Positions 9,102 to 41,366 of a DNA stretch of 64,000 nt are shown here, piece by piece. The notes beneath the pieces were generated by a model. The model ran no database searches. It saw only the letters and a program-made list of their open reading frames with translations, and was not told the origin of the DNA. The translations under genes and the position numbers were made by a program. Numbering within the stretch: position 1 is the stretch's first letter; the number at the start of each line of letters is the position of its first letter. Source of the DNA: Aplectana chamaeleonis (taxonomy: Eukaryota; Nematoda; Chromadorea; Rhabditida; Cosmocercidae); contig JAPDOI010000438.1 in NCBI GenBank assembly GCA_029168955.1, forward strand, positions 440,501-504,500, written 5' to 3'.

Positions 9102-9174
9102 GCTGCCGAGATGTCGTACGTTCACGCCGTGGCAGTGTGGAGGAAAGAAGATCACCTCTATGCAAACCGACGTC
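9102..9174 (+). ncRNA. HDV-like ribozyme at the 5' end of A3 (predicted)
   Basis: Positions below are counted from G1 of the element. P1 is nt 1-6 GCUGCC with 30-35 GGCAGU, including a G-U pair at the cleavage end. P2 is 9-15 GAUGUCG with 67-73 CGACGUC. P3 is 17-19 ACG with 27-29 CGU, closing a 7-nt loop. P4 is 38-42 GGAGG with 54-58 CCUCU. The joining strand AUGCAAAC (59-66) holds the candidate catalytic C at 62. This is the nested double-pseudoknot order of HDV-like ribozymes. Cleavage would fall exactly before G1, the TSD-defined 5' end. Compared with A4, one L3 base and bases at the end of P4 and the joining strand differ. Confidence 0.72.
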
Positions 9175-12100
9175 ACCCCCTCCGCGAAGAGGGTTTTTGT
9201 CATGGGAGAGGTGCTGGCCGGCCGCAGCTCTCCTTCGGATTCTCCTGCAAAGGGCCGGCGTGGAGAGGAATCCTGGACCCGCTCAGAAGTACCTATGCGC
9301 CACGTGCGGCAAGGATGTTACCAGGAGACATACCAGCGTCCAGTGCTCCGGATGCCAAAGGTGGGTGCATCTCTCCTGTTCGGGTCTCAGTTCTGTGAGG
9401 CATTATAACTCTGCTTTTCGCTGTGTTTTATGCTCTTCACCTACCAACTCTGATTCCTCTTCCTCAAATCGCCCCCTTTCCATTGTACATATCAATCTCA
9501 ACGGCCTTCGTACTAAACTTTCCTGAGCTCTCTCTCTTCGCACGTACTTACCATCCAGACGTGATCATGGTTCAAGAAACCAAGCTCTCTCCATCCCCTA
9601 CCTATCCTCATCCTAATATCCCGGGCTACACTGCCTTCCATGCTCCAAGGTCAGCTCTTGGCGGAGGAGTTTCAACCTTTGTTTTATCCTCTCTACCCTC
9701 CCACCTCATACCAAACACCCCCACGGATGGTACTCTCGAGTACCTTCCAATCCATCTCCCTCTTAAAACACCCCTTTCTCTTTTCAACATATATATTCCC
9801 CCTACCACCTCATGCCCTCCTCCTACAATCCCATTCCTCTTCTCAAACAAGTCAATGATTATTCCCTCTCATTATCAGTTGTTTTCGGGGCCGACTTTAA
9901 TGCCCACACCTTCTGCTCATCCCTTGGTTCTGATGCTAGAGGAGAAGAAGTCGAAGAATGGGCTGAGGAGTGCGACCTGGTCATCTTAAACGATGATCAG
10001 CCCACTCGTCTCCCTGCCAACGGCCGATCTTCTAGCCCAGACATAACTCTTATCTCGTCCAACCTTTCCAACGCTTGCTCATGGTCTACCTCAACAACAT
10101 TGTCTAGTGATCATGTTCCCGTCTTTGTGCACATCGATCTCTCAAATTCTCTTGCTCCTTATTCTGGTGTTCGTCAACGTTCTTATCTCAATTTAGGCCA
10201 AGCAGACTGGTGCCTGTTCAGTGAGGTTGCGCTACGCCTAGCGGCTGATTACCCGTGGAATGGCAATGTGCACCAGAAGGAGCATCACTTATCTGATGCA
10301 ATTCGCAGGGCCATGAAGGCGGCTATCCCTGTTGGCCGAGTTAAGACGTTCTATCCAAACGTAACCAGAGAAATTCTTGAGAAAATCAGGACTAGAGATG
10401 CCAGACGAGCAGTTGACCATCTAGACCCTGTCGTCGCTCAGCTGGATGGTGAGATCAGAAAAGATCTCGACCAGCACAAGAAAGAACAGTGGGAAAAATT
10501 CACAGAACAGTTGAATTTCAAGACGGACAGTGGAGCTACTTGGAAGATTCTTCGGAAACTATCGGGAAAGAGCTCGCCAGCCACCATCTCCACTATTGAG
10601 TTCGGTAATAACGTTTTCAAGTCAGGAAAGGAAGCCGCCTACTCTCTCGGTAAAAGTTTCTTTGTCACGAGTACAAGGCGAGGTCCGCAAAATAGAGTGA
10701 CAGTAAGAGAGCTGTGCCGCCTCCCGCTCATGAGCACGGCCGATGCGTTCACTGTGGCGCAAGTAGAGAAGATTATAAAGGACATGCGGAACTCCAAAGC
10801 TGTCGGTCCGGACGGCATTTGTCCTGCTGTACTGAAGAAACTCCCGACTGAGATCCTTCCGCTCATCGTTGATATGATTAACACTTCGTTTAGCTCTTGC
10901 ACTATTCCGCAAAACTGGAAGACAGCCAACGTCATCCCGTTGCCCAAGCCTGGCAAACCTCAGTCATCAGTAAAGGGATATCGTCCCATTAGCTTGATGT
11001 CACCTTTCGCCAAGGTGGCCGAAAAGCTCATTGTCAGGATCTAGCGGAGCACAACGAGAAGCAGTTGTTTCAACATGGGTTCAGGAGGCTACATTCCACA
11101 ACTACGGCGTTGCTAGAAATTACCAGCTATGCTATCGACGGGTTCAACTTTAACAAGCCATTGAGAACTGTAGCTGTTGCGTTGGATCTCACCAAGGCAT
11201 TTGATACGGTTAACCTTGGAGTCCTGTCAAGCAACATTCTGGAGTCGTCAATACCATCTTGGCAGAAGCGCTGGATATCGGCCTTTATTAAAGGTCGGCG
11301 GGCAAGAGTCATGTTTCAGAACCATGTCTCCAACAGTATTCCTATGGCAGCTGGAGTCCCTCAGGGCGGAGTTCTATCGCCAGCCCTCTTCAATCTGTAC
11401 CTCGGAGATATGCCTGAGCCTCCACAGGACATCAAGGTCGTCGCGTATGCCGATGACATAACAATCATGTGTCGAGATCGGGATTTACAGGTGGCCGCCA
11501 ATAAGATCAACGAGTACCTGATCACACTAAAGGGCTTTTTCGACCGCAAGATGCTAAGTATCTCTGCAGCCAAGTCGTCAGTGTCCGTTCTCACGACGGA
11601 CCCATCCGAGCACAGCGCTCATCCGGATGTCGTGTGGGATGGAGACCGTTTGCCTGCTGCTCGCTTTCCAAAGCTGCTCGGTCTTGTGCTCGATCCGTCA
11701 CTCAAGTTTCATAAGAATACCGAGCAGAAGCAGGCAGTCGTTAAAGCTAAGCTCCAACGTTCTCAGGGCCCTGGGCGGCACTTCGTGGGGTAGCAGCAAG
11801 GAGACTATACTCACAACGTATAAGGCAATTCTGCAGCCCGCCCTGGAGTACGCCGCACCGGTTTGGCAGCATCTCGTCTCAGAATCCTCCTGGACAAAGA
11901 TGCAACGAGTACAAAATGCTGCTCTCCGTATCGCCACCGGATGCGCAAGGAGTTCCCCAATCGAGCACCTGCATGCTGAGACCCGTCTATTACCAGTGAA
12001 GGAGCACTGTCAGCTCCAGGCCCAGCAATTCCGCATTAACATTATAAAACAACCAAATCACCCGTCGTGGAGAGTGCTAAACCCCCGTGAGAGAGAAGTA

Positions 12101-12516
12101 TAAGAAAGCCATTCGCCGATGCTCCAAACAAAGTCAATTTGCAAAGATGGCACGACTCACAGCAAGAACGACTCCGTCTTTTGCGCGAGGAGCACACCAA
12201 GTTCGTACGGTGTCATCTTGTGAAGGTGGCCATAAATCCTATACTAGGAGATATACCGCCCCCCGTCTGCACCTCAGAGTCTCAACTCGGAAGAAGGGCG
12301 AGATGCACGCTCGCATCATTACGCTGTGGTCACTCTACAATACTAATGTCTTATGTCAGCAAGATTGACAGCAGCAAATCTGATGTGTGCCCGGACTGCG
12401 GTATCGTCGGCCATGATACCGCACATTTATTCAACTGTCCGGAGAGACCTACCACGCTGACACCAATGGACCTATGGACGAATCCACTACTGGTCGCCCA
12501 GTTCCTCCGCCTATGA
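9120..12516 (+). pseudogene. A3 polyprotein (2A, PHD finger, APE, RT, Cys/His), frameshifted
   Basis: Order seen: 2A-like AGVERNPGP after LLRILLQR; a PHD-type C4HC3 finger starting CATCGKDV with CSGCQRWVHLSCSG and CVLC; APE endonuclease from about 9480 (HINLNGLR, VQETKLS, GGGVSTFV, DFNAHTF, SSDHVPVFVHID); RT (GPDGICPAVLKKL, LDLTKAFDTVNLG, GVPQGGVLSPALFN, VAYADDITIM); and a C-terminal CPDC/AHLFNC cluster with a stop at 12514-12516. Frame changes lie near 9520, 9830, 11040, 11750 and 12110. The usual VFAGDFN reads VFGADFN here. No ATG in the main frame precedes the 2A motif. The only early ATG (9111) opens an overlapping 95-codon frame. Confidence 0.87.
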
Positions 12517-12565
12517 CAAAACCCTCTATGTGGCTGCAAAGAAGAAGAAGAAGAACGAAAGTAGA

Positions 12566-13134
12566 GACTCCACCGCCGAGAGATGACCTTGGAGCATGGT
12601 AAGAAGTATAGCCTGGGATATTGGGATGAGGATAGGTAGGGGATGGAGAGAGCTTGGTTTCTTGAACCATGATCACGTCTGGATGGTAAGTACGTGCAAA
12701 GAGAGAGAGTTCAGGAAGCTTGGCACGAAGGCCGTTTAGATTGATATGCACAATGGAAAGGGGGCGATTTGAGATAGAGGAATCTGAGATGGAAGGTGAG
12801 GAGCATAACACACAACGAAAAGATGAGTTATGATGCCTCACAGAACTGAGACCCGAACAGGAGAGATGCACCCACCTTTGGCATACGAAGCACTGGACGC
12901 TGGTATGTCTCCAGTTTACATCCTCTCCGCACGTGGCGCATTGGTACTTCTGAGCGGGTCCAGGATTCCTCTCCACGCCGGCCCTTTGTAGGAGAATCCG
13001 AAGGAGAGTTGCGGCCGGCCAGCACCTCTCCCATGACAAAAACCCTCTTTGTGGAGGGGATGACGTCGATTTGCACGGAGGCGATCTTCTTTCCTCCACA
13101 CTGCCACGGCACGAACGTACGACATCTCGGCAGC
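12566..13134 (-). pseudogene. A2 polyprotein, N-terminal block (2A, PHD finger, start of endonuclease)
   Basis: This minus-strand block is open throughout. It has LLRILLQRAGVERNPGP, a 2A-like motif at which the ribosome may skip a peptide bond. A PHD-type zinc finger follows (CATCGEDV, CFVCQRWVHLSCSG, CVLC), then the start of the APE domain (HINLNGLRAKL, VIMVQETKLS, LGGGVSTFV). The block stops where A3 was inserted and continues at 9101. No in-frame ATG precedes the 2A motif. The only nearby ATG lies in the ribozyme P2 strand, in another frame that runs 69 codons. Confidence 0.85.
13062..13134 (-). ncRNA. HDV-like ribozyme at the 5' end of A2 (predicted)
   Basis: Same fold as in A3, read on the minus strand. 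P1 is GCUGCC with GGCAGU, P2 GAUGUCG with CGACGUC, P3 ACG with CGU, P4 GGAGG with CCUCC. The joining strand is GUGCAAAU. The G1 end is fixed by the 12-bp duplication starting at 13135. Bases differing from the other copies fall in the P4 loop and at the end of the joining strand; all paired bases are kept. Confidence 0.72.
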
Positions 13135-19089: not shown

Positions 19090-19169
19090 GGATCCGAGAT
19101 GCTCAACCTACGCGAGGTGGATCTGTGGAGTCGACTACCAAGATCAAGGAGACTCATCAAACGGGCATC
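19090..19169 (+). ncRNA. HDV-like ribozyme at the 5' end of A' (predicted, diverged copy)
   Basis: The same fold as family A with different bases. P1 is GGAUCC with GGAUCU, again ending in G-U. P2 is GAUGCUC with GGGCAUC. P3 is ACC with GGU around a 7-nt loop. P4 is GAGUC with GACUC. The joining strand AUCAAAC keeps the CAAAC core of family A. Against A, pairs change together at three positions in P1, three in P2 and one in P3, and the P4 stem is re-made. Start and spacing are identical up to the end of P1. The TSD places G1 exactly at the element's 5' end. This covariation is the main support for the fold. Confidence 0.75.
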
Positions 19170-20305
19170 AACAACTCCACGAGGAGTTTTTTCTGTATGG
19201 GAGTGCGAATGGCTGGCTGCCGCACTCCTTCGCATTCTGCTACGAGCCGGCATTGAGAGGAACCCATGGCCACGCAGCAAGACTCCACGATATCCCTGTT
19301 GTCATTGTGGATTATCAACTCAACATGCAAGCGTGCAGTGCGGTGGTTGCTTCGGCTGGGTACACCTCAAATGTTCGGGGTTAACCAGTTATAATGACTA
19401 CACTGAAGCTTATTGTTGTACTTCTTGCTCTAACTCCCCCCCCCTAGTGTTCCTCTTCATAGTCTAGACATTTTTCAACTCAATATCAATGGCCTGCGTG
19501 CCAAACTAGCTGAACTCACATTGTACATTGAACGCTTTCGTCCGCATGTCATCCTCCTTCAGGAGACAAAACTTAGTGTATCATCTTCCTTGCCCCGCCT
19601 TCCCGGTTATACGTCTTACCACCTTCCCCGCACATCCCATGGTGGTGGCGTGTCTACGTTTGTGAAATCTTCCATACCCTCCCACCTCATTTCTATCCCT
19701 AATGACAATGTTGTAGAATGTATAGGTGTTTCTGTTGTATTGCAAAGTTGCCCTATAGATATCGTCAATGTTTATATCCCCCCCCCCCACCTCCTCGTGT
19801 CCTAGTTCGTTTGACCCCACTCCATTTTTGCAATCTGTGCACATCTGCCCTCCCATCGTCTTCTGCTGTCATGGCTGGCGATTTTAATGCTCACTCTACA
19901 TCCTGGTTCTCCTCTCTAGATCCTGATGACAGAGGTGAACTACTTGAGCTTTTCGCTGAGGATTGTGATCTTGTTGCTATTAACGAGGACGCCCCCACTC
20001 GCCTTCCTTCCACGGGCAGGCCGTCCTCTCCGGATGTCACTTTTGTATCATCCTCTCTTGCTGTTTCGTGCAACTGGTCCACTGCTATAGCTATGGCCAG
20101 CGATCATGTACCTATATGTGCCTCATTGGATTTGTCCCTCAATAGTCACCTGGCACCTTTCATAGGCTTGCGTAGCAAATTGTACACCAACTATCGTAAG
20201 GCTAACTGGGTCATGTTTAAGGAGGTGTTACTCAGTCGGGTAGCCTGCTATCCGCTTACCGGCTCCGTTCATGAGAAGGACAAGTTCATTGTTGATGCCA
20301 TATGC
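19099..20305 (+). pseudogene. A' polyprotein, N-terminal block (2A relic, zinc finger, endonuclease)
   Basis: The ATG at 19098-19100, inside the ribozyme P2 strand, is in frame with the 2A region here, unlike in family A. The motif reads AGIERNPWP: the Gly of NPGP is replaced by Trp, which should abolish 2A activity. A zinc finger follows (CCHCGLS, CGGCFGWVHLKCSG, CCTSC), then APE blocks (INGLRAKL, ILLQETKLS, HGGGVSTFV, AGDFNAHSTSW, ASDHVPICASLD). Frame changes occur near 19465 and 19800. The block ends at VDAI, where C1 was inserted. Confidence 0.85.
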
Positions 20306-20321
20306 ATCAACAATGAAGAAA

Positions 20322-20644
20322 AATGCAGCTTGCTGCATATTAACTTTCGTCATGAATGCCCCTACGTTTAAACGGTGTGAAGCTTCCTGTGCACGAGGTT
20401 ATAAGGAACCTAGGTATTCTCATTAGTTCGAATCTTAGCTGGAACTCCCATTGCAGAGAAATCTCCAAAAGAGCTACCTCGGTGGCTAACTGTATTTTGA
20501 GATCCCTGAAACATCCCTGTCTTGTTCACTACAAGAAAGCATTCGCCGTTTACTGCCGACCTCTGCTGGAGTACTGTACTCAGGTTTGGTCACCTTCCAC
20601 AGTGGCATATGATGAGATCATTGAAAATGTGCAAAAGCGATACT
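20322..20644 (+). pseudogene. C1 reverse transcriptase C-terminal region, first part
   Basis: Encodes the region after the RT catalytic core: EEKCSLLHINFRHECP, VIRNLGILISSNLSWNSHCR, FAVYCRPLLEYCTQVWSPST and ENVQKRY. One base is lost in CCCTACG relative to C2 near 20366. It stops at the A4 insertion and continues at 24095. Confidence 0.82.
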
Positions 20645-20717
20645 GCTGCCGAGATGTCGTACGTTCGTGCCGTGGCAGTGTGGAGGAAAGAAGATCACCT
20701 CCGTGCAAACCGACGTC
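20645..20717 (+). ncRNA. HDV-like ribozyme at the 5' end of A4 (predicted)
   Basis: All stems as in A2: P1 GCUGCC/GGCAGU, P2 GAUGUCG/CGACGUC, P3 ACG/CGU with loop UUCGUGC, P4 GGAGG/CCUCC, and joining strand GUGCAAAC. G1 coincides with the first base after the 12-bp target duplication. Confidence 0.72.
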
Positions 20718-23700
20718 AATCCCTCCGCGGAGAGGGTTTTTGTCATGGGAGAGGTGCTGGCTGGCTGCAGCTCTCCTGAGGATTCTTCTACAAATGGCCG
20801 GCGTCGAAAGGAATCCAGGACCCGCGAAGAAGAAGAAGTACCCATGTGCCACATGCGGCAGAGATGTCAATTGGTATGGAACCAGCGTCCAATGTTTTGG
20901 ATGCGAAAGGTGGGTGCACTTCTCTTGTTCGGGTCTCAGTTCTGTGAGGCACCACGATTCTTCCTTTCGTTGTATTGTGTGCTCCGCCTCCAGTAACTCA
21001 AATTCCTCATCTACCAACCGCCCCTATCTATTGTACACATCAATCTAAACGGCCTTCGGACCAAGCTTTCTGAATTATCTCTCTTTGCCCGTACTCATCA
21101 CCCGGATGTTATCATGGTCCAGGAGACCAAACTCTCTCCCTCTGCTACCTCTAGACATCCAAACATCCCGGGCTATACTGCATATCATACTCCCAGGTCA
21201 TCTCTAGGAGGCGGAGTCTCTACTTTTGTTCTGTCCTCTCTTCCCTCTCACATTATTCCAAACACTCCAGTGGATGGCACTCTCGAGTACATCCCCATCC
21301 ATCTACCTCTTAAAACACCACTTTCTCTTTTTAATATATATATCCCTCCTTCTTCCTCTTGTCCCTCAACATACAATCCTATTCCCCTTCTCAGGCAGCT
21401 GTATGACTGCTCTCTTTCTCCCTCAATTGTCTTTGCGGGTGACTTCAATGCGCACACGTTCTGCTCGTCGCTTGATTCTGATGCTAGAGGAGGTGACGTC
21501 GAAGAATGGGCGGAGGAGTGCGATCTGGTTATCTTAAACGATGGCCAGCCCACTCGTCTCCCCGCCAACGGCCGATCATCTAGCCCAGACATCTCCCTCG
21601 TCTCTTCCAATCTCTCTAATGCCTGCTCTTGGTCGACATCCACAACTCTTTCCAGCGATCACATCCCTGTCTTTGTCGATATTGATCTCTCTAACTCTCT
21701 TGCTCCCTATACAGGTGTTCGTCATCGTTCTTATCTTAATTTAGGCCTTGCAGACTGGAGCCTGTTCAGGAGGTTGCGCTCCGCCAAGCGGCTGATTATC
21801 CGTGGAATGGCGATGTACACCAGAAGGAGCGCCACCCATCTGATGCTATCTTGAAGGCTATGAAAGCTGCGATCCCTGAAGGCCGCGTAAAGACCTTCTT
21901 TCCCAATGTCACCAGGGAAACACTGCAGAAGATAAGGACAAGGGACGCAAAGAGAGCCGCAAATCATCTTGACCCAGACATCGCTGCGCTGGATGATGAG
22001 ATCAGGAACGACCTTGACAGGCACAAGAAGGAAACTTGGGAAAAGTTCACTGAGAAGATGAACTTCAGAAATGATGCAGCAGCAACGTGGAAGGCCTTGA
22101 AAAGGATCTCCGGAAAGTTCACCTCCGCCGACAATTCCACGATTGAATTCGACGGCGGAGTCTTCAAGTCAGGGAAAGAGGCCGCAAATGCTCTTGGGAA
22201 GCATTTTTTCATCACTAGAACCAAAAGAGAGAAACAGAACAGAATAACTGTACGGGAACTCTGTAAGTTGCCTCTCATGGATGTAGATGATGCAGTCACG
22301 CCTGCGCAGGTCGAGAAGGCGATAAAGTGAGATGAGCAACTCGAAGGCATTAGGGCCAGACGGTTTGAGCCCTGCAGTCCTGAAGAGACTGCCCAGTGAA
22401 CTACTGCCCTTTATTGCTGACGTCATAAATACATCGTTTCGTACATGCATTTTACCCCAAAATTGGAAAGTGGCTCGTGTTATTCCACTGCCGAAGCCGG
22501 GAAAGTCACCATCCACGGCTAAAGGGTACCGGCCGATCAGTCTGCTCTCACCCATCGCCAAAATTGCCGAAAAACTGGTTGTGGAGGAGCTTGCCGAGCA
22601 TAACAGCCAACAGCAGCACCAACATGGTTTCCGTAAATTACATTCCACCACTACGGCCTTGTTGGAAATTGTGAGCTATGTGCTGGACGGCTTCAATGCC
22701 ATCAAACCCCAACGTACTGTTGGTGTGGCCCTCGACTTAACAAAGGCATTTGACACTGTCAATCTAGGCCTACTATCAGAGAGTCTGTTGAAGTCCACCA
22801 TCAAGCCATGGCAGAAGCGGTGGATAACTGCCTTCACTAAAGGACGTCGGGCAAATGTGCTATTCCAGGGACATGTTTCCAATAGCATCCCCATCGCCGC
22901 TGGTGTCCCTCAAGGAGGAGTTTTGTCGCCTGCACTTTTCAGTTTATATCTAGAAGATCTGCCCGTTTCCCCTCAAGACATCAAGGTCGTTGCATACGCG
23001 GATGTTATTACTATTCTGTGCCGAGATCGCGACATTAAGGTAGCCACCAGTAAGATCAATGACTACTTGATCGAGTTGAAATGTTTCTTCGATCGCAAAA
23101 TGCTCACAGTCTCTGCCTCCAAATCGTCCGTCACCGTCTTTTCCACTGATAATGCAGAGCACAGTGCCCATCCTATGGTTAAATGGGACGAAACTCAATT
23201 GCAGGCCACCCGATTCCCAAGCTGCTTGGACTCGTGTTGGATCCTTCGTTGAAGTTTCATAAGAACACTGAGCAGTAGCACGCCACAGTGAAAAGAAGAC
23301 TCAACGTCCTGCGTGCTCTCGGTGGAACGTCCTGGGGATGCAATAAAGAAACGATCCTGACCACGTATAAGGCTATTGTGCAACCCGCCTTGGAGTATGC
23401 TGCGCCAGTCTGGCAGCACATCGTGTCGGACACCTCTTGGTCCAAGCTGCAGCGCGTCCAAAATTGTGCTCTGCGAATTGCAACAGGCTGTTCCAAAAGC
23501 TCTCCAATAGAGCACTTACATGCTGAAACTCGCATATTGCCAGTTAGAGACCACTGCCAACTCCAGGCGCAACAAATGTACATTAACATCGTGAAGCAGC
23601 CGAATCACCCTTCGCGAAGAGTACTAAACCCGGTGAGAGAGAGATGTATCAGAAAGCCTTTCGCTGATGCTCCGTCGAAAGTAGATGTGCAGAGATGGAC

Positions 23701-24062
23701 CGAAGCACAACAAGAACGCCTCCGTCTCTTGCGCGCGGAGCATACCCGATTCGTGAACGAACACTTGAGCAGAGTTGCCATAAACCCCATCCTGGGAGTC
23801 GCACCTCCAAAGGTCTCCGAGACAGAGATGGAACTTGACAGGCGTGCCAGGTGCACCCTTGCATCGTTACGCTGTGGACACTCCCCATGCTTATGTCATA
23901 CTTGCATAGATTGACAACAGCAAACCTGACGAGTGTCCTGATTGCGGTAGTCAAGGGCATACTACTAGGCACCTGTTCAATTGCCCGAAAAGACCGTCTA
24001 CATTGACGACAATGGATCTGTGGACGAACCCAGTGCTAGTGGCCGAGTTTCTGAACCTATGA
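20664..24062 (+). pseudogene. A4 polyprotein, broken; catalytic Asp of RT lost
   Basis: 2A-like AGVERNPGP, a Lys-rich linker AKKKKYPCATC leading into the PHD finger (CFGCERWVHFSCSG), APE (VQETKLS, GGGVSTFV, FAGDFNAHTF, SSDHIPVFVDID), RT (LGPDGLSPAVLKRL, GYRPISLLSPIAKIAEKLV, GVPQGGVLSPALFS) and the C-terminal Cys/His region, with a stop at 24060-24062. The RT active-site block reads VAYADVIT instead of YADD, so the second catalytic Asp is missing. Stops or frame changes occur near 21040, 21765, 22330, 23225 and 23910. Inactive. Confidence 0.87.
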
Positions 24063-24094
24063 CAGAACCCCTCTCTGTGGCTGCAAAGAAGAAG

Positions 24095-24501
24095 AAAAGC
24101 GATACTCTAGACGTGTGTTCACCAAAGTATTCCCAAACAGAGAAGTTCCAGATTATGAAGCTCGTTTGGATATGCTAGGGTTAAATACCCTACGATGTCG
24201 CAGAGCTGAGTTTGATTTGCATTTGTGCTATAAGATCGTGCATGGTTTTTGCGACGTTCCCTTTGACAGCCTTTTCGTGTTTACTCGCCACCATGGCCGT
24301 TCTCGCAAACATGGATTCCAGCTTGAACGGAAATTCACCTCTAAAGGCAGCATATTGAGTTCTTTTGCGTTCAGGGTTGTCAGAACATGGAACAATTTGC
24401 CTGCAGAAATCGCTGAGTCCGGAAACTTTTCGACCTTTCGAAGTAGACTATCCAAGTACGATCTCAGGTCATTACAAGGAACGAGTGAGCGTCCACTTTG
24501 A
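24095..24501 (+). pseudogene. C1 ORF2 C-terminal region, second part
   Basis: Continues from 20644: RRVFTKVFPNREVPDY, LDMLGLNTLR, FDLHLCYKIVHGF, RSRKHGFQLERKF, RTWNNLPAEI, ending LRSLQGTSERPL with the stop at 24499-24501. The 3' UTR follows until the A7 insertion at 24624. No catalytic motif lies in this part. Confidence 0.82.
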
Positions 24502-24681
24502 TTAAAAGGGTATTACTAATAATCTAATGTGACGGGTTCTTCCAGCTTGTTGTGCTTTTCTTTGTCCCAGAAGCGGTGGCCTCAAGTATCTTGAGACAAG
24601 AGGTCATTCGGATTGTAAAAAAATATGTTTCAGGGACATGTATCTAATAGCATCCCGATCGCTGCCGGTGTCCCTCAAGGA

Positions 24682-26377
24682 TTTCTACAAATTTCTACAA
24701 ATACATGAACGCTAGGATGAAAACTCGTAATGGTATCGCTGCATTGAAAGGCGAGGGTGGCGAGGTTATAGCTGATGATCGGCGAAAATGCGATATTTTT
24801 GCGGACTATTTCTCCAAGGTATTTACTTGTGATAACGGAACTACACCCCGATTTCCCCCTCGTTGCCCACAGAAATTTCGCTTTATAGCCATTAACTACG
24901 AGATGGTGATGCAGGCCATTAAGAAACTTGGCGACAAAATTTCGCTTACCCCGGACTCTCTGCCTTCCTACTTCATTAAAAGGCATGCCAACGGTTTATG
25001 CTACCCCCTATCTTGCATATTCAAACACAGCCTTGCGCTTGGAACCTTACCGACCGCATGGAAAACAGCTTTTGTCTCCCCACTTCTCAAAAAGGCACCA
25101 GCTGCCCAGGTTTCAAACTACCGACCTATCAGCTTAACTTCCTCGGTATGTAAAGTCCTTGCAATCCATATCAAAAACAGTATCCTCTCCCACTTACATC
25201 GAATAACCTCAATCCAGACGATACGGTTCACTGCCTGGTAGATCAACACTGTCCCATTTATTATCTTCATTTCACGACTGATGTTCAACTTTGAACGAAA
25301 ACTGCCAGACAGATATTGTGTACATCGACTATGCCACAGCTTTTGACACGGTTATTCATTCTAAATTGCTTCTCAAACTCGAGGTGTATTGTACATTTGA
25401 GGAGACATTTAGAAGTTCCTTTCTGACCGCTGGTCATTTTAAAGTCAAAATCGACAACTTTTGCTCTCATCACTGCCAAATTGCCAGTGGCGTACCATAG
25501 GGTAGCGTTTTGGGTCCATTACTATTCCTTATCTATGTGAACGATATCTCGGACGAATTGTCTAGCACATGTAAGCTTTTCGCTGATGATCTCAAAATAT
25601 ATCGCCCTCTTCGAAATCCCGCTATCGATTTTCACGAACTTCAATGTGACTTGAATCGGCTTGCCGACTGGTCCAAACAATGGCAGTTGCAGCTATCTGA
25701 GGAGAAATGCAACTTGTTGCACATCAATTTCCAACACGAATGCATCTTACGCCTGAACAATGTTGTGCTTCCGGTGGGAATCCCACTGCAAAGAAATCTC
25801 GAAAAAAGCTTCTCGTGTGGCTAATTGTATACTCAGGTCCCTGCAACACCCCTGCCTCGAGCATTATAGGAAAGCATTCATTGTCTACTGCCGGCCATTG
25901 TTGGAATACTGCACGCAGGTTTGGTCACCATCTTCGGCTGAAGATGACGAAATCGTTGAAAACGTGCAAAGACGATACTCAAAACGCGTTTTTATCAAAT
26001 TATTTCCTGGGCGAGAAGTGCCAGATTATACGACTAGATTAAAAATGTTAGGGATTGAAACCTTACGATACAGGAGAACTGAGTTTGATCTACATTTATG
26101 TTATAAGATAGTTAATGGTTTCAGTGACATTCCTTTTGAGAGCACTTTTGCGTTTACTCGCCACTGTGCTCGCTCTCGCCAACACGGTTTCCAGCTCGAA
26201 CGTGCATTCACCACCAAATCCGGCGTACTGCATTCCTTTGCCTACCGGGTTATACGAATTTGGAACAAATTGCCTCTGGAAATTGTCGAAGCAAAAAACT
26301 TTTCGATTTTCAAATGTCGCCTGTCCAAGTTTGATCTCAGGTCAATACATGGGACAGACGGCCATTCATTTTGTTAG
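24682..26377 (+). pseudogene. B1 ORF2 remnant: reverse transcriptase
   Basis: RT blocks in order: LTPDSLPSYFIKR, WKTAFVSPLLKKAP, NYRPISLTSSVCKVL, DIVYIDYATAFDTV, SVLGPLLFLIYVNDIS, CKLFADDLKIY (catalytic FADD), WESHCKEISKK and HYRKAFIVYCRPLLEYCTQV, ending FDLRSIHGTDGHSFC with a stop at 26375-26377. Breaks: loss of sequence and a stop near 25240, a stop in place of Gln in VPQG near 25499, an internal deletion near 25775, and a frame change at 25800. Inactive. Confidence 0.85.
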
Positions 26378-26573
26378 AGCTTTAAGTTCAGAGTGCTATC
26401 ACTTTTACGAGTCGTTTTACGTGTGTTTTCCTACTTGTCTACCTGTTTACTTGCATGGGTGGACTACCTCAATTCATTCATTTATTTTATTTTATTTTAC
26501 CGTACATGTGAAGCTACTACCTCTTCACATACACCATGTATGTTTCTTTATTGCAAAATAAAGCGATTGATTG
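24682..26573 (+). mobile_element. Element B1: CR1-like retrotransposon in A7
   Basis: A 5'-truncated CR1-like copy of 1.9 kb with a TTGA tail after GCAAAATAAAGCGATTGATT. The short target duplication is AGGA. Its last 800 bases are almost identical to B2 (46640-47402), so both are young. It is the innermost layer of the stack A' > C1 > A7 > B1. Confidence 0.87.
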
Positions 26574-27760
26574 AGGAGGAGTCATATCGCCTGCTCTGTT
26601 CAGTCTTTACCTGGAAGATTTGCCCGTCCCCCCAAGTGACATCAAAGTCGTTGCGTATGCGGATGACATCACCATCTTGTGCCGGGACAGAGACATTAAT
26701 GTAGGCGCACGCAATATCAATAGCTACCTCATCGTTCTGAAGAACTTTCTCGATGATATGATGCTCACTGTCTCTGCCGCTAAATCATCTGTATCAGTTT
26801 TCTCCACTGACCCTAAGGAACACTGCGCTCACCCCGTTGTGAATTGGGAAGACGCTCGTCTGCCTGCTGCTCGTTTTCCTAAGCTGCTCGGCCTAGTATT
26901 GGATCCTTCGTTGAGGTTCCACAAGAATACGGAGTGAACGAACATGGCTACGGTGAAAGCAAAGCTCAACGTCCTACGAGCTCTGGGAGGAACGTCGTGG
27001 GGAAGTAGCAAGGAGACAATTTTGACCACCTAGAAGGCAATATTGCAGCCGGCGTTGGAGTACGCTGCACCGGTATGGCAGCACATGATATCGGATTCAT
27101 CGTGGACAAATATGCAGCGAGTTCAAAATGCTCCTCTCCGGATTGCCACAGGGTGTGCTAAAAGCACCCCAGTGGAACATCTTCATGCTGAAGCCCATAT
27201 TCTGCCTGTTAAGGAGCACTGTCAACTCCAAGCGCAGCAACTGGTTATTAACATTGTCAAGCAGCCTGACCACCCATTAAGAAGGATCATGAATCGCGTG
27301 AGAGATACATATCAGAAGGCCTATTGCGGATGCTCCCGAGAAAGTCAATATACAAAGATGGACGGACTCCCAGCTGGATCATCTGCGTCTTTTACGTGCG
27401 GAGCACACCAAGTTCGTCAGGGATCACTTGAGTAGGATGACCGTCAATCCCATATTGGGGGTCGCACCACACATAGTCAGCGACACCGAGATGGAACTCG
27501 GTAGGCGGGCTAGAAGTACCCTTGCCTCGTTACGCTGCGGTCATTCCCCTATGCTGATGTCATTCTTGCATAAGATCGATCGCAGTAAGCCGGACGAGTG
27601 CCCGGACTGTGGTAGCCGTGGCCACACAACTGAACACCTATTCGAATGCCCAAAGAGGCCTACCACTCTTACAACAATGGATTTGTGGACGAATCCGGTT
27701 TCAGTCGCCCGTTTCTTGAACCTTTGACAAAAACCTTCCTGCGGCTGCAAAGAAGAAGAA

Positions 27761-27914
27761 GTAAAAAAAATTCCTCTGCAAAAAATTCATATTTTGTCCC
27801 CTTCTCACTTCTGCCATTGTTATGCATCTTTTTTTTACTTTAACAAAGAATCTCATTCACATACGTGTATATGTATGTTTCTTTATTTCCACAATAAAGT
27901 CGTTGAATGAATGA
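27761..27914 (+). mobile_element. C1 terminal 3' UTR block
   Basis: Last part of C1 after the A7 insertion: TTCATATTTTGTCCCCTTCT, then ACAATAAAGTCGTTGAATGA. Same sequence as 17700-17857 and 51040-51181. A' resumes directly afterwards. Confidence 0.85.
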
Positions 27915-27918
27915 ATGC

Positions 27919-28975
27919 AATGCCTCCAGAATTGCAATTCCTACAGGGCGCGTTAGGACGTTTCATCCTAACGTTCCCAAAGATGTCCTGGAGCTGATCG
28001 AATTACGGGACGAGAAACGCTGAGCTGATCCTGGAGATCCCAGCATTCAACAACTGTCAGATGAGATCACAAAAAGGCTGAATGATTACAAACGGACGCG
28101 ATGGATGGAGTTCACTGAATCCTTGAATTTCTCCACTGACGCAAAGAAGACCTGGAGCATTCTTAAGCGGTTATGTATCTGGGAAGGAATTGGCAGCGGA
28201 TCGCAACATGCTTGAGTTCCCTTCGGGGAAATTTGAGTCCGGATTTAAGGCTGCATGTCGACTTGGAAAACACTTCGCTTCAGCGACGTCCCGCCGTGAT
28301 CGTTTTAACAGGCGCACTCTCCGGTCTATAAGGAAGCTCAGCCGACAAGGTGTACCTGCCATGGCTGCCACTGAGATGTCTTCCCTCATCAAGTCCATGA
28401 AGAACTCGAGAGCCGAGGGACCCGACGGCGTGTCAGCCGTCCATCTCAAACACTTGCCGGAACAGCACCTTGAACTACTTTGTGATCTGGTCTACTCGTC
28501 ATTCAGCACAGGTGTCATTCCCGCTAGATGGAAACAAGCAATTGTTCTACCGATCCTCAAGCCTGGCAAACCAGAAGATCAAGCAACTTCGCATCGACCC
28601 ATCTCCCTTTTGTCCCCTATTGCTAAGTTAGCGGAGAAATTTATTAACCCGCACCTCCAAGAAGCATTACGACATAACGTGCATCAACATGGCTTCAAGA
28701 AGGCCCACTCTACCATCACGGCACTCACGTCCATCACAGAACACATAATTGCTGGCTTCAACATGAAACCTCCAGCTGGTAGAAGTATAGTCGTGGCAGT
28801 TGACTTAACCGCCGCCTTCGATAATGTCAGTATCCCTCTGCTGTCCAAATCGATTCTGGATTCTACTATTCCTGACTGGTGCAAAAGATGGACTGATAAC
28901 TTTGTCAAGAATCGTTCCATTCGTGTGAAATTTGATGGACACTTGTCGAAGTCTGTGCCCCCGAAGGCAGGCGTC
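27919..28975 (+). pseudogene. A' polyprotein, second block (linker and RT fingers)
   Basis: Continues from VDAI: NASRIAIPTGRVRTFHPNV, a stop at about 28022, FTESLNFSTDAKKTWSILKR, then RT blocks GPDGVSAVHLKHLPEQ, WKQAIVLPILKPGKPED, HRPISLLSPIAKLAEKF, HQHGFKKAHSTITAL, VAVDLTAAFDNVS and the start of the GVPQG motif (PPKAGV). A6 interrupts exactly within AGGCGTC. A frame change lies near 28175. Confidence 0.85.
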
Positions 28976-29014
28976 TTCTTCTTCTTCTTCTTTGCAGCCA
29001 CATTGAGGGTTTTG

Positions 29015-32000
29015 TCATAGGTTGAGGAACTGGGCGACCAGTAACGGATTTGTCCATAAGTCCATTACGGTCAGCGTGGTAGGTCTCTCCGGACAGTTGA
29101 ATAAATGTGCGGTATCGTGGCCGATGGTACCGCAGTCCGGGCACACATCAGATTTACTGCTGTCAATCCTGCTGACATAAGACATTAGCATTGTAGAGTG
29201 ACCACAGCGTAATGATGCGAGCGTGCACCTGGCCCTTCTTCCGAGTTGAGCCTCGGATGTGCAGACTTGGGGCGGCACTACCCCAATATGGGATTAATGA
29301 CCGCCTTTTTCAGATGACACCGTACAAACTGAGTATGCTCCTCGCGCAATAGACGGAGTCGTTCTTGCTGTGAGTCGTGCCATCTCTGCAGATTGACTTT
29401 GCTGGGAGCATCGGCGAATGGCTTTCTGATCTTTCTTTCTCTGACGGGGTTTAGCACTCTCCAAGAGGGGTGATTTGGTTGTTTGACAATGTTGATGAAA
29501 AATTGTTGGGCCTGGAGCTCACAGTGCTCCCTTACTGGTAATAAGCGGGTCTCAGCATGCAAGTGATCGACCGGGGAACTTCTTGCACACCCGGTGGCGA
29601 TTCGAAGAGCCGCATTCTGTATGCGTTGCATCTTAGTCCAAGAGGATTCCGAAACCAGATGCTGCCAAACTGGGGCGCCGTATTCCAGTGCAGGCTGGAG
29701 AATAGCCTTATACGTTGTAATAATGGTTTCTTTGCTACTACCCCATGTTGTACCGCCCAGGGCTCTAAGCACGTTAAGCTTCGCTTTAACGATAGCCTGC
29801 TTCTGTTCCGTGTTCTTATGGAATTTGAGCGATGGATCGAGTACGAGTCCGAGAAGTTTTGGGAAGCGGGCGGCAGGCAAACGATCTCCATTCCATACGA
29901 CATACGGATGTGCGCTGTGTTCAGATGGGTCCGTTGTGAGTACGGATACCGATGACTTTGACGCAGAAATCTTCAGCATTTTGCGGTCGAAGAAGCTTTT
30001 CAGTGCGGTCAAGTACCCGTTAATCTTAGCGGCGGCCACATTTATGTCCCGATCACGACACAAGACAGTCATATCATCAGCGTAAGCGACCACCTTGATA
30101 TCTTGGGGTGGGGCGGGCATATCTTCGAGGTACAGACTGAAGAGAGCAGGCGACAATACACCGCCCTGTGGGACTCCAGCTGCAATCGGAATGCTGTTTG
30201 AGACATGATTCTGGAACATCACTCTAGCCCGTCTTCCCTTAGTGAATGCAGCTATCCAGCGCTTTTGCCATGGCGGGATTGATGACTCCAGTAAGTTGTT
30301 TGATAAGATACCAAGATTCACTGTGTCGAAAGCCTTAGTGAGATCTAAGGCAACTGCTACAGTTCTTTCCGGCTTATACGCGTTGAAACCATCAATTGCA
30401 TAGCTCGTAATTTCTAACAAAGCTGTCGTGGTGGAATGCATTTTTCTGAATCCATGCTGAAACACCTGTCTCTCGTTGTGCTCGGCCAGGTCTTTGACGA
30501 TCAGCTTTTCAGCTACTTTAGCAAAAGAAGACAACAAGCTAATGGGCCGATATCCCTTGACTGAAGCTTGGGGCTTGCCAGGCTTGGGCAGTGGAACGAC
30601 GTTTGCCATCTTCCAATTCTGCGGGATAGTACACGACATGAACGAGGAGTTTATCACATCAGTGAGGAGCGGTAGTAAGTCAGCAGGTATCTTCTTCAAG
30701 ACAGCAGGACATATCCCATCAGGACCAATAGCTCTAGAGTTCCGCATTTCCTTCATAATCTTCTCAATTTGCGTCGTAGTAAACGCTTCGACCGTGCTCA
30801 TAAGCGGGAGGCGGCACAGCTCTCTTACAGTCACTCTATTCTGCGGACCTCGTTTAGCACTGGTGATGAAAAACTTTTCCCGAGCGCATAAGCGGCTTCC
30901 TTTCCTGATTTGAATACGCCGTTGTCGAATTCGATAGTGGAGACGAGTGGCGGGTGAGCTTTTACCCGAAAGCTTCCGTAAAACCTTCCAAGTAGCTGCA
31001 CTGTCCGTCTTTAAGTCCATCTGTCCGGTGAACTTCTCCCACTCTTCTTTCTTGTGTCTGTCCAAATCCTTTTTGATCTCACTGTCCAGCTCAGCAACCA
31101 CGGGGTCCAGATGATTAACCGCTCTCCTCGCATCTCTCGTTCTAATTTTGTCGAGGATTTCCCTGTTGACATTTGGATAGAACGTCTTGACGCGACCGAT
31201 AGGGATAGCCGCATTCATGGCCTTGCGGATTGCGTCAGATAGATGGCACTCCTTCTGGTGCACGCTTCCATTCCACGGGTAATCTGCCGATAGGCGAAGC
31301 GCAACTTCACTGAACAGGCGCCAGTCTGCTCGGCCTAAATTAAGATAAGAACGTTGGCGAACACCAGAAAAGGGAGCGAGAGAATTGGATAGATCGATGT
31401 GGACAAAGACAGGAACGTGGTCACTTGGCAGAGTAGTCGAGGTAGACCATGAGCAGCAGCTAGAAAGGTTGGACGAGACAAGAGATATGTCTGGGCTAGA
31501 AGATCGGCCGCTGGCAGGGAGACGAGTGGGCTGATCATCGTTTAGAATGACCAGGTCGCACTCATCTGCCCATTCTTCGACGTCATTTCCTCTAACATCA
31601 GGACCGAGAGACGAGCAAAAGGTGTGAGCGTTGAAATCACCCGCGAAAACGACCGAGGATGAGAGGGAGCAGTCGCTCAGCTGCTTGAGAAGTGGGATAG
31701 GATTGTAAGATGAAGGGCATGAAGTTGTAGGTGGAATGTATATGTTGAAAAGAGAAAGGGGTGTTTTTAGGGGAGATGGATTGGGAGGTACTCAGGAGTA
31801 CCGTCCGTGGGGGGTGCTGGGAATGAGGTGTGAGGGAAGTGAAGATAGAACGAAAGTAGAGACTCCACCGCCGAGAGATGACCTTGGAGCATGGTAAGAA
31901 GTATAGCCTGGGATATTGGGATGAGGATAGGTAGGGGGATGGGAGAGAGCTTGGTTTCTTGAACCATGATCACGTCTGGATGGTAAGTACGTGCAAAGAG

Positions 32001-32420
32001 AGAGAGTTCAGAAAGCTTGGCACGAAGGCCGTTTAGATTGATATGCACAATGGAAAGGGGGCGATTTGAGATAGAGGAATCTGAGATGGAAGGTGAGGAG
32101 CATAACACACAACGAAAAAGATGAGTTATGATGCCTCACAGAACTGAGACCCGGAACAGGAGAGATGCACCCACCTTTGGCATCCGGAAGCACTGGACGC
32201 TGGTATGTCCCCAGTTTACATCCTCTCCGCACGTGGCGCATTGGTACTTCTGAGCGGGTCCAGGATTCCTCTCCACGCCGGCCCTTTGTAGGAGAATCCG
32301 AAGGAGAGTTGCGGCCGGCCAGCACCTCTCCCATGACAAAAACCCTCTTTGTGGAGGGGATGACGTCGGTTTGCACGGAGGCGATCTTCTTTCCTCCACA
32401 CTGCCACGGCACGAACGTAC
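29015..32420 (-). pseudogene. A6 polyprotein, with a 661-codon intact RT frame
   Basis: N-terminal 2A-like AGVERNPGP and zinc finger (about 32136-32400, frame change in the finger near 32190), then APE (HINLNGLRAKL, VQETKLS, FAGDFNAHTF, PSDHVPVFVHID) with breaks near 31900, 31800 and 31600. The segment 29278-31263 is one long frame. It runs from the APE-RT linker through GPDGICPAVLKKI, GYRPISLLSSFAKVAEKLI, LDLTKAFDTVNLG, GVPQGGVLSPALFS and the catalytic YADD to the post-RT region NPILG. A lost C at the run CCCC near 29280 shifts the last 87 codons (CPDC, AHLFNC, stop at 29015). A 1-base change near 30940 disturbs the linker. Confidence 0.88.
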
Positions 32421-32434
32421 GACATCTCGGCAGC
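32362..32434 (-). ncRNA. HDV-like ribozyme at the 5' end of A6 (predicted)
   Basis: Read on the minus strand: P1 GCUGCC/GGCAGU, P2 GAUGUCG/CGACGUC, P3 ACG/CGU, P4 GGAGG/CCUCC and joining strand GUGCAAAC, identical in all stems to A2 and A4. The element boundary set by the AGGCGTC duplication coincides with G1. Confidence 0.72.
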
Positions 32435-32441
32435 AGGCGTC

Positions 32442-32967
32442 CCACAAGGAGAGTTTTATCTCCCAGCCTGTTTTCTTTGTATCTGTCCGATGTGCCGAAG
32501 CCGTCATCAAACATCCACTTATGCCTATATGCGGATGACATCACTATTATTTGTACTGACCCTGTTATCGATCGAGCCACTGCTGAGGTGAATAAATACC
32601 TTGTCAGTCTGGCTAAGTTCCTGGAATCAAAGCTGCTAAAGGTCTCTCCAACCAAGTCCAGCGTTACTTTGTGCACTACAGCGACTGCCGAACACAAGCT
32701 GCATCCCAAGGTTCTCTGGGAAGTAAACATGCTGCCCTTTTCAAAACACCCTCGTCTACTCGAAGTATTCCTGGACCCGTCACTACGTTTTCACGAAAAC
32801 ACACGTATTCAAGCTGCTGCCGCCAACACACGTAACAACATTCTACGTTTGCTAGCAGGCACTACATGGGGTAGCTCTAAGGAAATCATGCGAACCACCT
32901 ACAGGGCTATGGAGCAGCCGGTGCTGGGATATGGAGCCCCAATATGGTCAAGACACCTGTCGGAAGC
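32442..32967 (+). pseudogene. A' polyprotein, third block (RT catalytic core)
   Basis: Continues GVPQG as CCACAAGGAGAG (PQGRVLSPSLFSLYLSDVPK), then the catalytic CLYADDITIICTD, SLAKFLESKLLKVSPTKSSV, a FLDPSLRFHENTRIQ segment, ILRLLAGTTWGSSKEIMR and APIWSRHLSEA. It is open to the MULE2 insertion point. YADD is intact in this block. Confidence 0.87.
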
Positions 32968-33080
32968 ACAAGAACGATAGTTAAGTGCGCCAGAATCGGG
33001 CTACCGTAATCTTAACCGTAAAATTAATTGTTTGGCGACGGTTTTTCACGGACGAAACAACTCATTCGACGGCAGATAAT
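32968..33080 (+). repeat. Left terminal inverted repeat of MULE2
   Basis: Begins ACAAGAACGATAG after the target copy GTCGGAAGC. It contains GGGCTACCGTAATCTTAACC and GACGAAACAACTCATTCGAC, mirrored at the right end. Confidence 0.88.
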
Positions 33081-34260
33081 GGATTTTTGTTCGTCAGTGT
33101 CGTGTCGGCGCTCAATTTATAAAAGACCTCAAGAAGACGGTTTTTTGTTATTGAACAGCTCAGTGAGTGCACCCAAAAGGACTTTTTTATTTCTTGCGCT
33201 TCCTTTCAGTACTTTTCATGAGCGCCGTAGTTTCTTCGCTTTTTCATGAAACTGATTGAAAACTGAACATGAGTACCGGAAAAATGGATGTTAACAGGAA
33301 AATCACGGAACGAGTTTTCCTAATTAACAATCAATAATTCACATAACAAGGCAGTCATATTGGGAAGATAACTGCTTAAACTGGCAAAGATTCGTAGGTA
33401 TCAGATAGTATTGGGAAGAGAATTGCTTAAACTAGCAAAGATTCATAGGTGTTAGATTTGGAGCAAACTGCTGATTACTTTTCGGGACACCCATAAACAA
33501 GCCGTCTCAGACATAAGGGCGGACCTATCGCGCACAGAACTTGCCGAATAGTACTTACCGCGCTCAGGAACCGTTTTGACCGCGATCGAAAGCCCAATTA
33601 GGACTTACCGCGAATAAACTCGCGGTCAGAGCGATTGCATTCCGGTGCTCGCGATACAACCGCTTCGCCATCCGGTCGGATCGCGCGCAAACGCAGTAAT
33701 AGGACTACCGTCGCAGCCCCGTCCATTCCTCAGATTAAATTTATTACGTTAACTCTATGTATCGATTATCCACAGTAGTATTAAATATCCAATATCCACT
33801 AGGCATTATTCGAATTTTTCTTTAATGATTCACATAACTGTGCGTCCAGTACATTTAAGTGCCTTTGCGATTTGTTCAAGATGCGAACGAAAATGAAATT
33901 ATATCTATTTTGATGTTAAGACTGAGAATTAGAAATGGCCTGGAACCATATTCACCACCGACGCGATACAGAGTTTATTTCAATCGTCCATGGATGCATA
34001 TAGATTTTTGGTCGATAAGGATTGTAAGCACAGCTTCTCTTCATTTGTCGCGATAAGTATGAATCCGGCCCGTAGCGAGTGGAAATTGAGTCTTGTCTCG
34101 ATTTGTAGACCGATTTCCGGTATTGTAGGCCATCCAAGTCATTCTTGGGTGACCTCTAAGTGAGCGCCCATAGTTGAGAATAACAAGCGACCTCTGTCGT
34201 TACGGGAGGTACGGTTGAGAATGATATAATGATTGTATCCTTGACGATTGTGGCTGTCTA
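33081..34260. other. MULE2 left interior without genes
   Basis: Nearly 1.2 kb with no recognisable protein. A roughly 45-bp segment (TTGGGAAGATAACTGCTTAA) is tandemly duplicated near 33360-33450. A short unrelated inverted match near 33955-34137 was also seen. Nothing resembles a transposase. Confidence 0.55.
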
Positions 34261-34540
34261 CTGTGCTTATCTGGGCCCAATTCCGGTCCGCAATTGCGTC
34301 TCGACACGCTTTGCGGCCGCACGCTCCCGAGTCAGAAGAGCTTCCAGCGCCGCAGCCGCCGATCTGCTAACTCTAGGTGGGTTTTGGAAACTGGAAACTA
34401 AGAAAACCTGGAGAAAATTTGAAAAAAAAAGCCTCATCTAGCCGGCTTTGGCGCTGGAAACCCGACTGAATCAAGCACGTGCGGCGGCAAAGCGCGTCGA
34501 GACGCAATTGTGGACCGGAATTTGGCCCAGATAAGCACAG
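34261..34540. mobile_element. TA-flanked foldback MITE, copy 2
   Basis: A 280-bp relative of 18350-18627 with ends CTGTGCTTATCTGGGCC and GGCCCAGATAAGCACAG, flanked by TA on each side. It sits inside MULE2, so it inserted there later or was carried in. Tc1/mariner-type by its target preference. Confidence 0.85.
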
Positions 34541-35160
34541 TATACATGCCTCGCTCTGTTGAGCTGTAGATAGCCGCGGTAGCTCAAGATAAATTGTGGT
34601 GAGCGCGAAGCGCTCACCAGATTTGGCTTTGATTCGCAATCGCGCAACCCCCTGATCTCGGTATCAGGGTCCAGAGTAAACGTAGGAAAACCGTTCTTTT
34701 TGCATTCAATATACTTTAGAAAGGTGAATAACTGTTGAAAAAATGGTCTGAAATGGTTACCTGAGATTCGAGAAAAAGTGTCAAAACCACGTCATTTTGG
34801 TCGAAAAAATGTTCATCTCCTTTTTTCAGTTGGCGTTCACGATCTTGTTGGAACACTTATCGTTGAGCTAGAGAGCTGAATTTTGGTCAGGGAGCTGGTT
34901 TCGTTTGCACCTAGCTCCTGTCAAAATTTGAAGTTGGTTGCTCAATTTTTGTGGAACCTCAAAATTGACGGTCAGGAAAGACAAAAACACGTAAACATGT
35001 TATTATAAACCATCCGACGTTTACTTATTCGTAAAAATGAACTAGTGAAATAAACACCGTTACTGATAGGCTTTTACTCAGGATTTGACGGGGCAACGCT
35101 TCAATCAATACGGCAGGATCTCGGAAGTACTTTTCGGAACGCGGCACCGTGTGACTCAGA

Positions 35161-36755: not shown

Positions 36756-36852
36756 AGCTCGCCCATGCGGATCATTTTTTCCGCAGGGTTACCGTAACCA
36801 TTCTTGAGCAAAACATGATAACGAACGATAACACACGCTCATAACATGCGGG

Positions 36853-36861
36853 GTATAAAAG
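36853..36861 (+). promoter_or_regulatory. TATA-box-like motif in the copy 1 spacer
   Basis: GTATAAAAG lies in a GC-rich context, followed about 30 bases on by GCATTCATTCACACACCG. The segment 36761-36990 is present in copy 1 but missing from copy 2. It looks like a core promoter, but there is no recognised gene downstream; only the palindrome follows. Weak call. Confidence 0.3.
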
Positions 36862-37107
36862 GGCAGAGGAGCGGTATGCATTCATTCACACACCGTTCTC
36901 TTCGAGAAGCCGCCGGGAAGTGGCTGAGGAGGTCGAAATTGTGCAAACACGTTGGTTGGCTATTACGATGAGGTGTGCAGGACATCAGTTGGAGTGCGAA
37001 GGACGTCATAGAAGGGTGGGGGGCAGGACATCACTGGGTTTACTTTCATCTAACACCACCAGGCATAAATCATGTTAGAAAGGAAACCTTTCGGAAAAAT
37101 AAATGAA

Positions 37108-37774
37108 ATTCCTGAAAGTTTAGGTTCCTGGCAAAAGTGAAGATTTGGCATGGCCATTTTTTCGAAGAATTAGAAATATACTCAGGTAAAACGAGAAAGG
37201 TAAAGAAAAATGAAAAAAAAGTTTTGAAATATTCCTGAGAACGATTTGGCGTAGAATAATTTGTTTTTCGGGAAATGAAGTGAAATAGTTGAAAGTATGA
37301 TTTGGCAGTCGAGTTTGAACCGGCTATTGATAAGAGTTGTGCAAAACGAGAGATCGCCTTGTCTGTGCTTATCCGTAGAACATATCAAAGCGAAATCGCG
37401 CGTGTTGATTTTACTTCACCTAATACGTGAAGACCGCCGCATTACAGCTCCCGAAAAAGTTTTGATGCTTCCCATTTCACGCGTGATTTCGCTTTGAAAT
37501 GTTCTACGGATAAGCAAAGACAAGGCGATCTCTCGTTTTGCACAACTCTTATCAATAGCCGGTTCAAACTCGACTGCCAAATCATACTTTCAACTATTTC
37601 ACTTCATTTCCCGAAAAACAAATTATTCTACGCCAAATCGTTCTCAGGAATATTTCAAAACTTTTTTTTCATTTTTCTTTACCTTTCTCGTTTTACCTGA
37701 GTATATTTCTAATTCTTCGAAAAAATGGCCATGCCAAATCTTCACTTTTGCCAGGAACCTAAACTTTCAGGAAT
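37108..37774. repeat. 667-bp palindrome, copy 1
   Basis: Arms of about 290 bases run from ATTCCTGAAAGTTTAGG to the mirrored CCTAAACTTTCAGGAAT with few mismatches. The non-palindromic centre (about 37398-37484) reads TTGATTTTACTTCACC then CATTACAGCTCCCG in the plus direction. The same centre lies in the opposite orientation in copy 2. No coding function is supported. Confidence 0.88.
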
Positions 37775-39720: not shown

Positions 39721-39803
39721 GGACATCAGTGGGTTTACTTTCATCTAACACCACCAGGCATAAATCATGTTAGAAAGGAAACCTTTAGGAAAAAATAAAT
39801 GAA

Positions 39804-40677: not shown

Positions 40678-40686
40678 GTCGGAAGC

Positions 40687-41321: not shown

Positions 41322-41366
41322 GGAGAAGCTCTAATGTGGCCGATAAGAAGAAGAAAAGCAGACGAT

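Follow-up and report, generated by a model that had tools for sequence, protein, structure and literature searches.

The 64-kb window, the whole stretch of DNA analysed here, contains several copies of an APE-type non-LTR retrotransposon family (A and A′) that begin with the same base, G1, directly after a target-site duplication (TSD). The question that this locus raises is how such a uniform 5′ end is produced. HDV-like ribozymes have been described at the 5′ ends of the LINEs R2, R4, RTE and L1Tc (PMC3774820, PMC4035085, PMC7761336). Judged from its sequence, the first 73–80 nt of the present family very probably constitute an HDV-like self-cleaving ribozyme that would release the 5′ end of the element. 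The preliminary description of this DNA had placed such a ribozyme at the exact 5′ end of the family, and this proposal is supported by the uniform G1, by conservation of the segment, by the presence of the fold in a distant relative (L001), and by the core residues, all considered below.

Nested double pseudoknot at the element 5′ ends

For characterization of the fold, five sites in the window were used. The A′ ribozyme candidate lies at 19090..19169 (+ strand), with cleavage predicted directly 5′ of 19090; the remaining four coincide with the 5′ ends of A2 (9102..9174, +), A4 (20645..20717, +), A3 (13062..13134, −; A3 is interrupted by A2), and A6 (32362..32434, −). A nested P1-P2-P3-P4 double pseudoknot in the HDV order could be drawn at all five, with the sequences originally given for them, and also in L001; every A or A′ copy of the window with a located 5′ end matches the fold. 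A2, A3, A4, and A6 are related, so that the five sites represent two independent lineages, A and A′.

The five sites share one layout: a P1 of 6 bp that includes G1·U, a 2-nt J1/2, a P2 of 7 bp, a P3 of 3 bp, a 7-nt L3, a P4 helix, and a J4/2 of CAAA(C/U), whose C falls at nt 62 of A and at nt 69 of A′. The G1·U-closed P1, short P3, 7-nt loop, and joining strand of the preliminary description are thus present throughout. In the window A′ copy, the helices are P1 GGATCC/GGATCT, P2 GATGCTC/GGGCATC, P3 ACC/GGT, and P4 GAGTC/GACTC, with L3 TACGCGA and J4/2 CAAAC. Minimum-energy folds calculated with RNAfold, which cannot draw pseudoknots, did not contain the pseudoknot. The 6-bp length of P1 had been named as a weak point, a P1 of about 7 bp being usual (PMC3774820), and the length stands; a seventh pair could be made, but one pair of P3 would then be lost.

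Element boundaries and genomic copies

Element ends were located from TSDs, 3′ tails, and similarity. A2 (9102..12553, +) sits in A3 and ends in an (AAG)n tail, with the second TSD copy from 12554, and A4 (20645..24094, +) sits in another LINE, with the second TSD copy from 24095. The extent of A6 (28976..32434, −) was set by similarity. The A′ element (19090..41353, +) is apparently split by nested insertions and ends in an (AAG)n tail, with the second TSD copy from 41354; translated fragments suggest that its pieces belong together. In all five copies the TSD recurs after an (AAG)n tail, clearly so in A2 (AACGAAAGTAGA), A4 (AAAAGCGATACT), A′ (AAAAGCAGACGAT), and A3 (about GAAAGAAGGTAT); in A6 (GACGCCT), both copies of the TSD are followed by G, which leaves one base ambiguous. 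G1 had been reported as the first base after the TSD in five copies, which is clear for A2, A3, A4, and A′ and holds for A6 to within that one base.

Other features of the window were also recorded. The interval 3112-5904 (−) belongs to a LINE from a different family, which shares 63% identity with a protein of Ancylostoma ceylanicum, a hint of a nematode host or of a transfer. Long inverted repeats at 42022-42153 and 858-935 gave matches to miRNA-precursor models below the cut-offs and are possibly hairpin-forming mobile elements. A large tandem-repeat region, with units of roughly 42 bases and open frames on both strands, extends over 34592-39716.

Conservation along the elements was then compared pairwise. 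Over the first 73 nt, A6 and A4 are 99% identical and A2 and A4 95%, against 72-73% for whole elements. In comparisons of A4 with A6 or A2, just 2 of 3399 sliding windows were equally conserved, the first included; for the closer pair, A2 and A6, the first 73 nt were unexceptional and were matched by 362 of 3399 windows.

The 5′ ends of A and A′ were used as queries against the genome (1.04 Gb), and the best 40 of 1518 and the best 40 of 1259 first-look candidates were scored. From these, 60 loci were taken, 30 for A and 30 for A′, one of which (L002) is the window's own A′ copy. G1 is the start of 58 of the 60 loci, 55 by exact string and three (L020, L028, and L030) with point changes; these loci are the best matches to queries beginning at G1, so that the figure describes uniformity among good copies and not an overall rate. 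The 12-nt flanks of the 55 exact-string loci are all distinct, with those of L012 and L022 agreeing in at least the last 10 letters. The complete fold is kept in 56 of the 60 loci, although the near-identity of the A copies means that the loci cannot be counted as independent support for it. The exceptions are L020 and L028, which carry point changes, and L026 and L027, which start two bases later. Among these best-match loci, the genomic 5′ ends, whose comparison had been proposed as a check, agree with the ribozyme reading. At one locus (L062:1040-2623), an A′ 5′ fragment is followed by a longer A′ copy, each preceded by TAGTCTACTT, which is also found after the 3′ tail at 5714, making this a complex insertion.

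Descriptor searches and chance expectation

The search descriptor called for a P1 of 6-7 bp beginning with G, a P2, a P3 of 3 bp immediately ahead of P1′, a P4, and C-N-A-A ahead of P2′. Applied in loose form to both strands of the 64-kb window, it returned only five starts, 9102 (+), 19090 (+), 20645 (+), 32434 (−), and 13134 (−), exactly those that had been claimed; 12 random windows gave 5 matches in total. The strict form, which demands a 7-nt L3 and a P2 of at least 6 bp, returned five starts in the window (three on the + strand and two on the − strand), every one at an element 5′ end. The total for 146 random strands, each of 128 kb and generated by a first-order Markov model, was 10 matches, a mean of 0.07.

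A covariance-model search against Rfam had been suggested as a further check, and its result is a point against the ribozyme. No HDV-type family matched the window, two 5′ ends, L001, L063, or L007, either at the gathering cut-off or at E values up to 10, in searches run without a positive control. Covariance models of the Rfam type are not known to accommodate both pseudoknots. Detectability by Rfam is a convention and not a defining property of HDV-like ribozymes, and a form missed by the standard RNA library suggests that such ribozymes are under-counted.

Covariation and core residues

A third lineage was provided by L001, a 4.3-kb contig in a Thiotrichales MAG record that was found by aligning relatives. 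It is probably a eukaryotic contaminant in a bacterial MAG, that is, a contamination of the public record, and the record suggests that it apparently comes from another organism. Its best segment has 33% protein identity to A. L001 contains a single descriptor match, at 88-154 on the coding strand, shortly before a 2A motif that lies in an open frame. It is the one distant relative that was read; another LINE contig beside it had no descriptor match. Viral contigs yielded no distant relatives, and 204 plasmid records yielded weak matches only, all below 60% identity and none covering 80%, with group II intron RT annotation on 7 of the 10 among the matches listed.

The three folds were compared pair by pair. 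In A, the elements are P1 GCUGCC/GGCAGU, P2 GAUGUCG/CGACGUC, P3 ACG/CGU, L3 UUCGUGC (UUCACGC in A2), and J4/2 CAAAC. The corresponding parts are GGAUCC/GGAUCU, GAUGCUC/GGGCAUC, ACC/GGU, UACGCGU (the commonest L3), and CAAAC in A′, and GGUCCA/UGGACU, GAGUACA/UGUACUC, GCC/GGU, UACACGU, and CAAAU in L001. All 16 P1-P3 pairs are canonical in each lineage. Between A and A′, six of these pairs are changed on both sides, two on one side, and eight not at all, with none broken. Seven compensated pairs had been claimed for this comparison; the count falls to six, since the P2 change from C-G to U-G is only one-sided. Two-sided changes number 8 between A and L001 and 7 between A′ and L001, with 1 and 2 one-sided changes, respectively. 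When the 3′ letters were dealt at random among the pairs, all pairs were canonical in 0 (A′), 1 (L001), and 1 (A) of 500,000 trials.

Residues of the catalytic core type were also compared. A, A′, and L001 all have G1·U as the first P1 pair at the predicted cleavage site, and a G at the cleavage site in such a pair is a feature of HDV-like ribozymes. The J4/2 C likewise has a role in these ribozymes; CAAAC or CAAAU is found in all three lineages, but is required by the descriptor and hence is not independent evidence. Outside the descriptor, L3 U1, C3, and G6 and the first G of J1/4 are present in all three, and the same four residues occurred jointly in 2 of 204 random matches to the loose descriptor. 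L3 C3 and the J1/4 G presumably correspond to P1.1 of the HDV fold. P1.1 had been called poorly defined, and it proved better defined than that, though still partial: in all three lineages, L3 C3 could pair with the G that opens J1/4, and a second pair, of L3 A2 with the next U, is possible in A′ and L001 and impossible in A. L3 U1 and G6 could form the U-G reverse wobble in all three lineages, a conserved feature of HDV-like ribozymes (PMC3774820).

These comparisons bear on a reading that takes the 5′ end for an internal promoter, as Pr77 also is, with transcription starting at a fixed +1, the uniform G1, and with the fold incidental. Uniform 5′ ends and strong conservation would be equally compatible with such a promoter, and Pr77 of trypanosomatids is described as acting as promoter and ribozyme both. 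Promoter function would not, however, call for a double pseudoknot whose 16 pairs are maintained by compensated changes across three lineages, nor for the residues found in L3 and J4/2. A promoter may coexist with a ribozyme; as an account of the 5′ end in place of the ribozyme, we consider it highly improbable.

Subfamilies with and without the complete fold

Two further subfamilies were read for the presence of the ribozyme fold. In subfamily C, 15 of 20 copies have it, 13 of them at a shared start (including L082, which matches only with a 5-bp P2), and two, L071 and L078, at a different spacing relative to the query region. The five copies without a match show similarity that begins far downstream and are apparently 5′-truncated.

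Subfamily D shares 66-68% identity with A in the portion that was compared. From 40 scored matches, five were selected and their upstream stretches read; one of the five (L087) stops short of the 5′ end. In the four that include the 5′ region (L083-L086), the ribozyme is present except for the 5′ strand of P1 and is preceded by common upstream sequence. Of three copies followed further, L088 diverges about 560 nt upstream of the remnant while L089 and L090 match beyond, so that the common leader measures about 560 nt or more and D has at least two upstream contexts. This pattern fits a 5′ end that moved upstream once P1 was lost, but with so few copies the same picture would be expected from segmental duplication or from capture by another element. 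Copies without a complete P1 make the D lineage a natural counterpart to A and A′.

Such copies, together with the 4 of 60 A and A′ loci that lack the complete fold, would agree with a ribozyme that worked in an ancestor and is now inactive in these families. The many near-identical copies that start at G1 with the fold intact point instead to recent multipliers that possessed it, and loss of activity is accordingly given very little credence here.

Coding content and possible frameshifting

The A6 ORF at 29278-31791 (−) encodes an endonuclease (PF14529) and an RT (PF00078) by Pfam, and a PHD finger match fell just below the cut-off. No RNase H was detected by Pfam in this 837-aa ORF or in three C-terminal ORF pieces of A-type elements, nor in the relatives P0002 and P0108 or among the Pfam domains listed for 120 of the 1689 relatives.

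A 2A-type motif (VERNPGP) is encoded at 20803..20822 (+) in A4, with counterparts beginning at 9260 (+), 12976 (−), and 32276 (−). All four A copies of the window encode GVERNPGP, in agreement with the pattern D/G-V/I-E-x-NPGP ahead of the enzyme domains. Among the A′ loci, NPGP is found in 25 of 30, being absent from the window copy, L007, L009, L020, and L021; the window copy reads NPWP at 19250-19275, a private change of the motif. Of the 120 relatives listed (of 1689), 36 have [DG]xExNPGP within the first 250 residues.

The ribozyme and the reading frame overlap, with an ATG at element nt 10 inside P2, and the 5′ end might therefore be thought conserved as coding sequence for an N-terminal peptide. 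In A′, this ATG opens the 2A frame, and in A4, too, the 2A frame runs open through the ribozyme, though without an ATG before the M of LLQMAG. In A, on the other hand, the nt-10 ATG is out of frame with the 2A motif (20645-20850 and the counterparts in A2, A3, and A6), the 5′ strand of P1 precedes the ATG, and the peptides of A, A′, and L001 differ while the pairs stay. A and A′ do not share the same reading frames in the ribozyme segment, so that conservation of the fold is not explained by coding alone, and we regard this account as most unlikely.

The disparity of frames in A may have its own explanation. A GGGTTTT at 20734..20740 (+), which we take to be a slippery sequence, lies in the frame of the nt-10 ATG of A4 with a predicted hairpin after it, and is a possible −1 frameshift site of A. 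In all 30 A loci, which are nearly identical and amount to one observation, GGGTTTT is in the ATG frame and the 2A motif one frame back. A −1 frameshift in A could thus yield a protein start like that of A′; alternatively, initiation may not require the usual AUG, a mode of translation that has been reviewed for R2 and L1Tc. A hairpin after the T-run, with a compensated pair, is seemingly present both at 20746-20780 and at the same place in A′, where it was recognized by eye.

Proposed mechanism and significance

On the ribozyme reading, transcription would begin at a promoter that lies upstream of the insertion site and would continue through the element, and the RNA would fold and cut itself directly 5′ of G1. 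The template for retrotransposition would then begin at the first base of the element, and reverse transcription to that end would give copies starting with G1. This would account in concrete terms for the uniform 5′ ends of elements without a separate 5′ UTR, and would extend HDV-like 5′-end processing to a populous group of LINEs with the 2A motif.

A more speculative proposal, which we put forward tentatively and hold to be rather doubtful, is that a 5′ module of ribozyme and 2A is ancestral to a large and widespread group of APE-type LINEs (2A-PHD-EN-RT) and shared with L1Tc, and that A frameshifts at GGGUUUU with the help of the downstream hairpin. If true, RNA self-cleavage, frameshifting, and ribosome skipping would all be packed into a single leader of about 180 nt.

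Comparison with known systems

R2 has an endonuclease of another type. It resembles the present family in having an HDV-like fold at the LINE 5′ end, with the L3 U-G pair and cleavage at or near the 5′ junction, but inserts site-specifically into 28S rDNA and draws on rDNA sequence for its P1 in many species (PMC3774820). Unlike R2, A and A′ have TSDs that differ, and their P1 lies within the element. R4, RTE, and other LINE ribozymes are alike in 5′ location and in the role proposed for them; they belong to other LINE groups and are likened here by description.

A further parallel is with L1Tc/ingi, in which the Pr77 hallmark, 77 nt long, forms an HDV-like ribozyme at the element 5′ end; these elements, like the present family, are LINEs that encode an apurinic endonuclease (PMC4035085). 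L1Tc is also reported to contain a 2A sequence (cited in PMC4981915), comparable to the 2A-type motif of A. It differs in its trypanosomatid host and in encoding RNase H (PMC4035085), which was not detected in the A-type ORF pieces scanned. Membership in the L1Tc/ingi clade, where RNase H would be expected besides endonuclease and RT, is not claimed for A, and the likeness to Pr77 is one of description.

APE-type LINEs with 2A have been reported to carry NPGP ahead of endonuclease and RT (Odon 2013), as in the present elements. Ribozymes are not named in those portions of the 2A-LINE literature that were searched for the word, and the titles and abstract openings of the papers listed gave no earlier description of such a ribozyme in a 2A-PHD-EN-RT family. 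As a class, HDV-like ribozymes are already known; the A and A′ elements would add to it a new member in a 2A-carrying LINE group.
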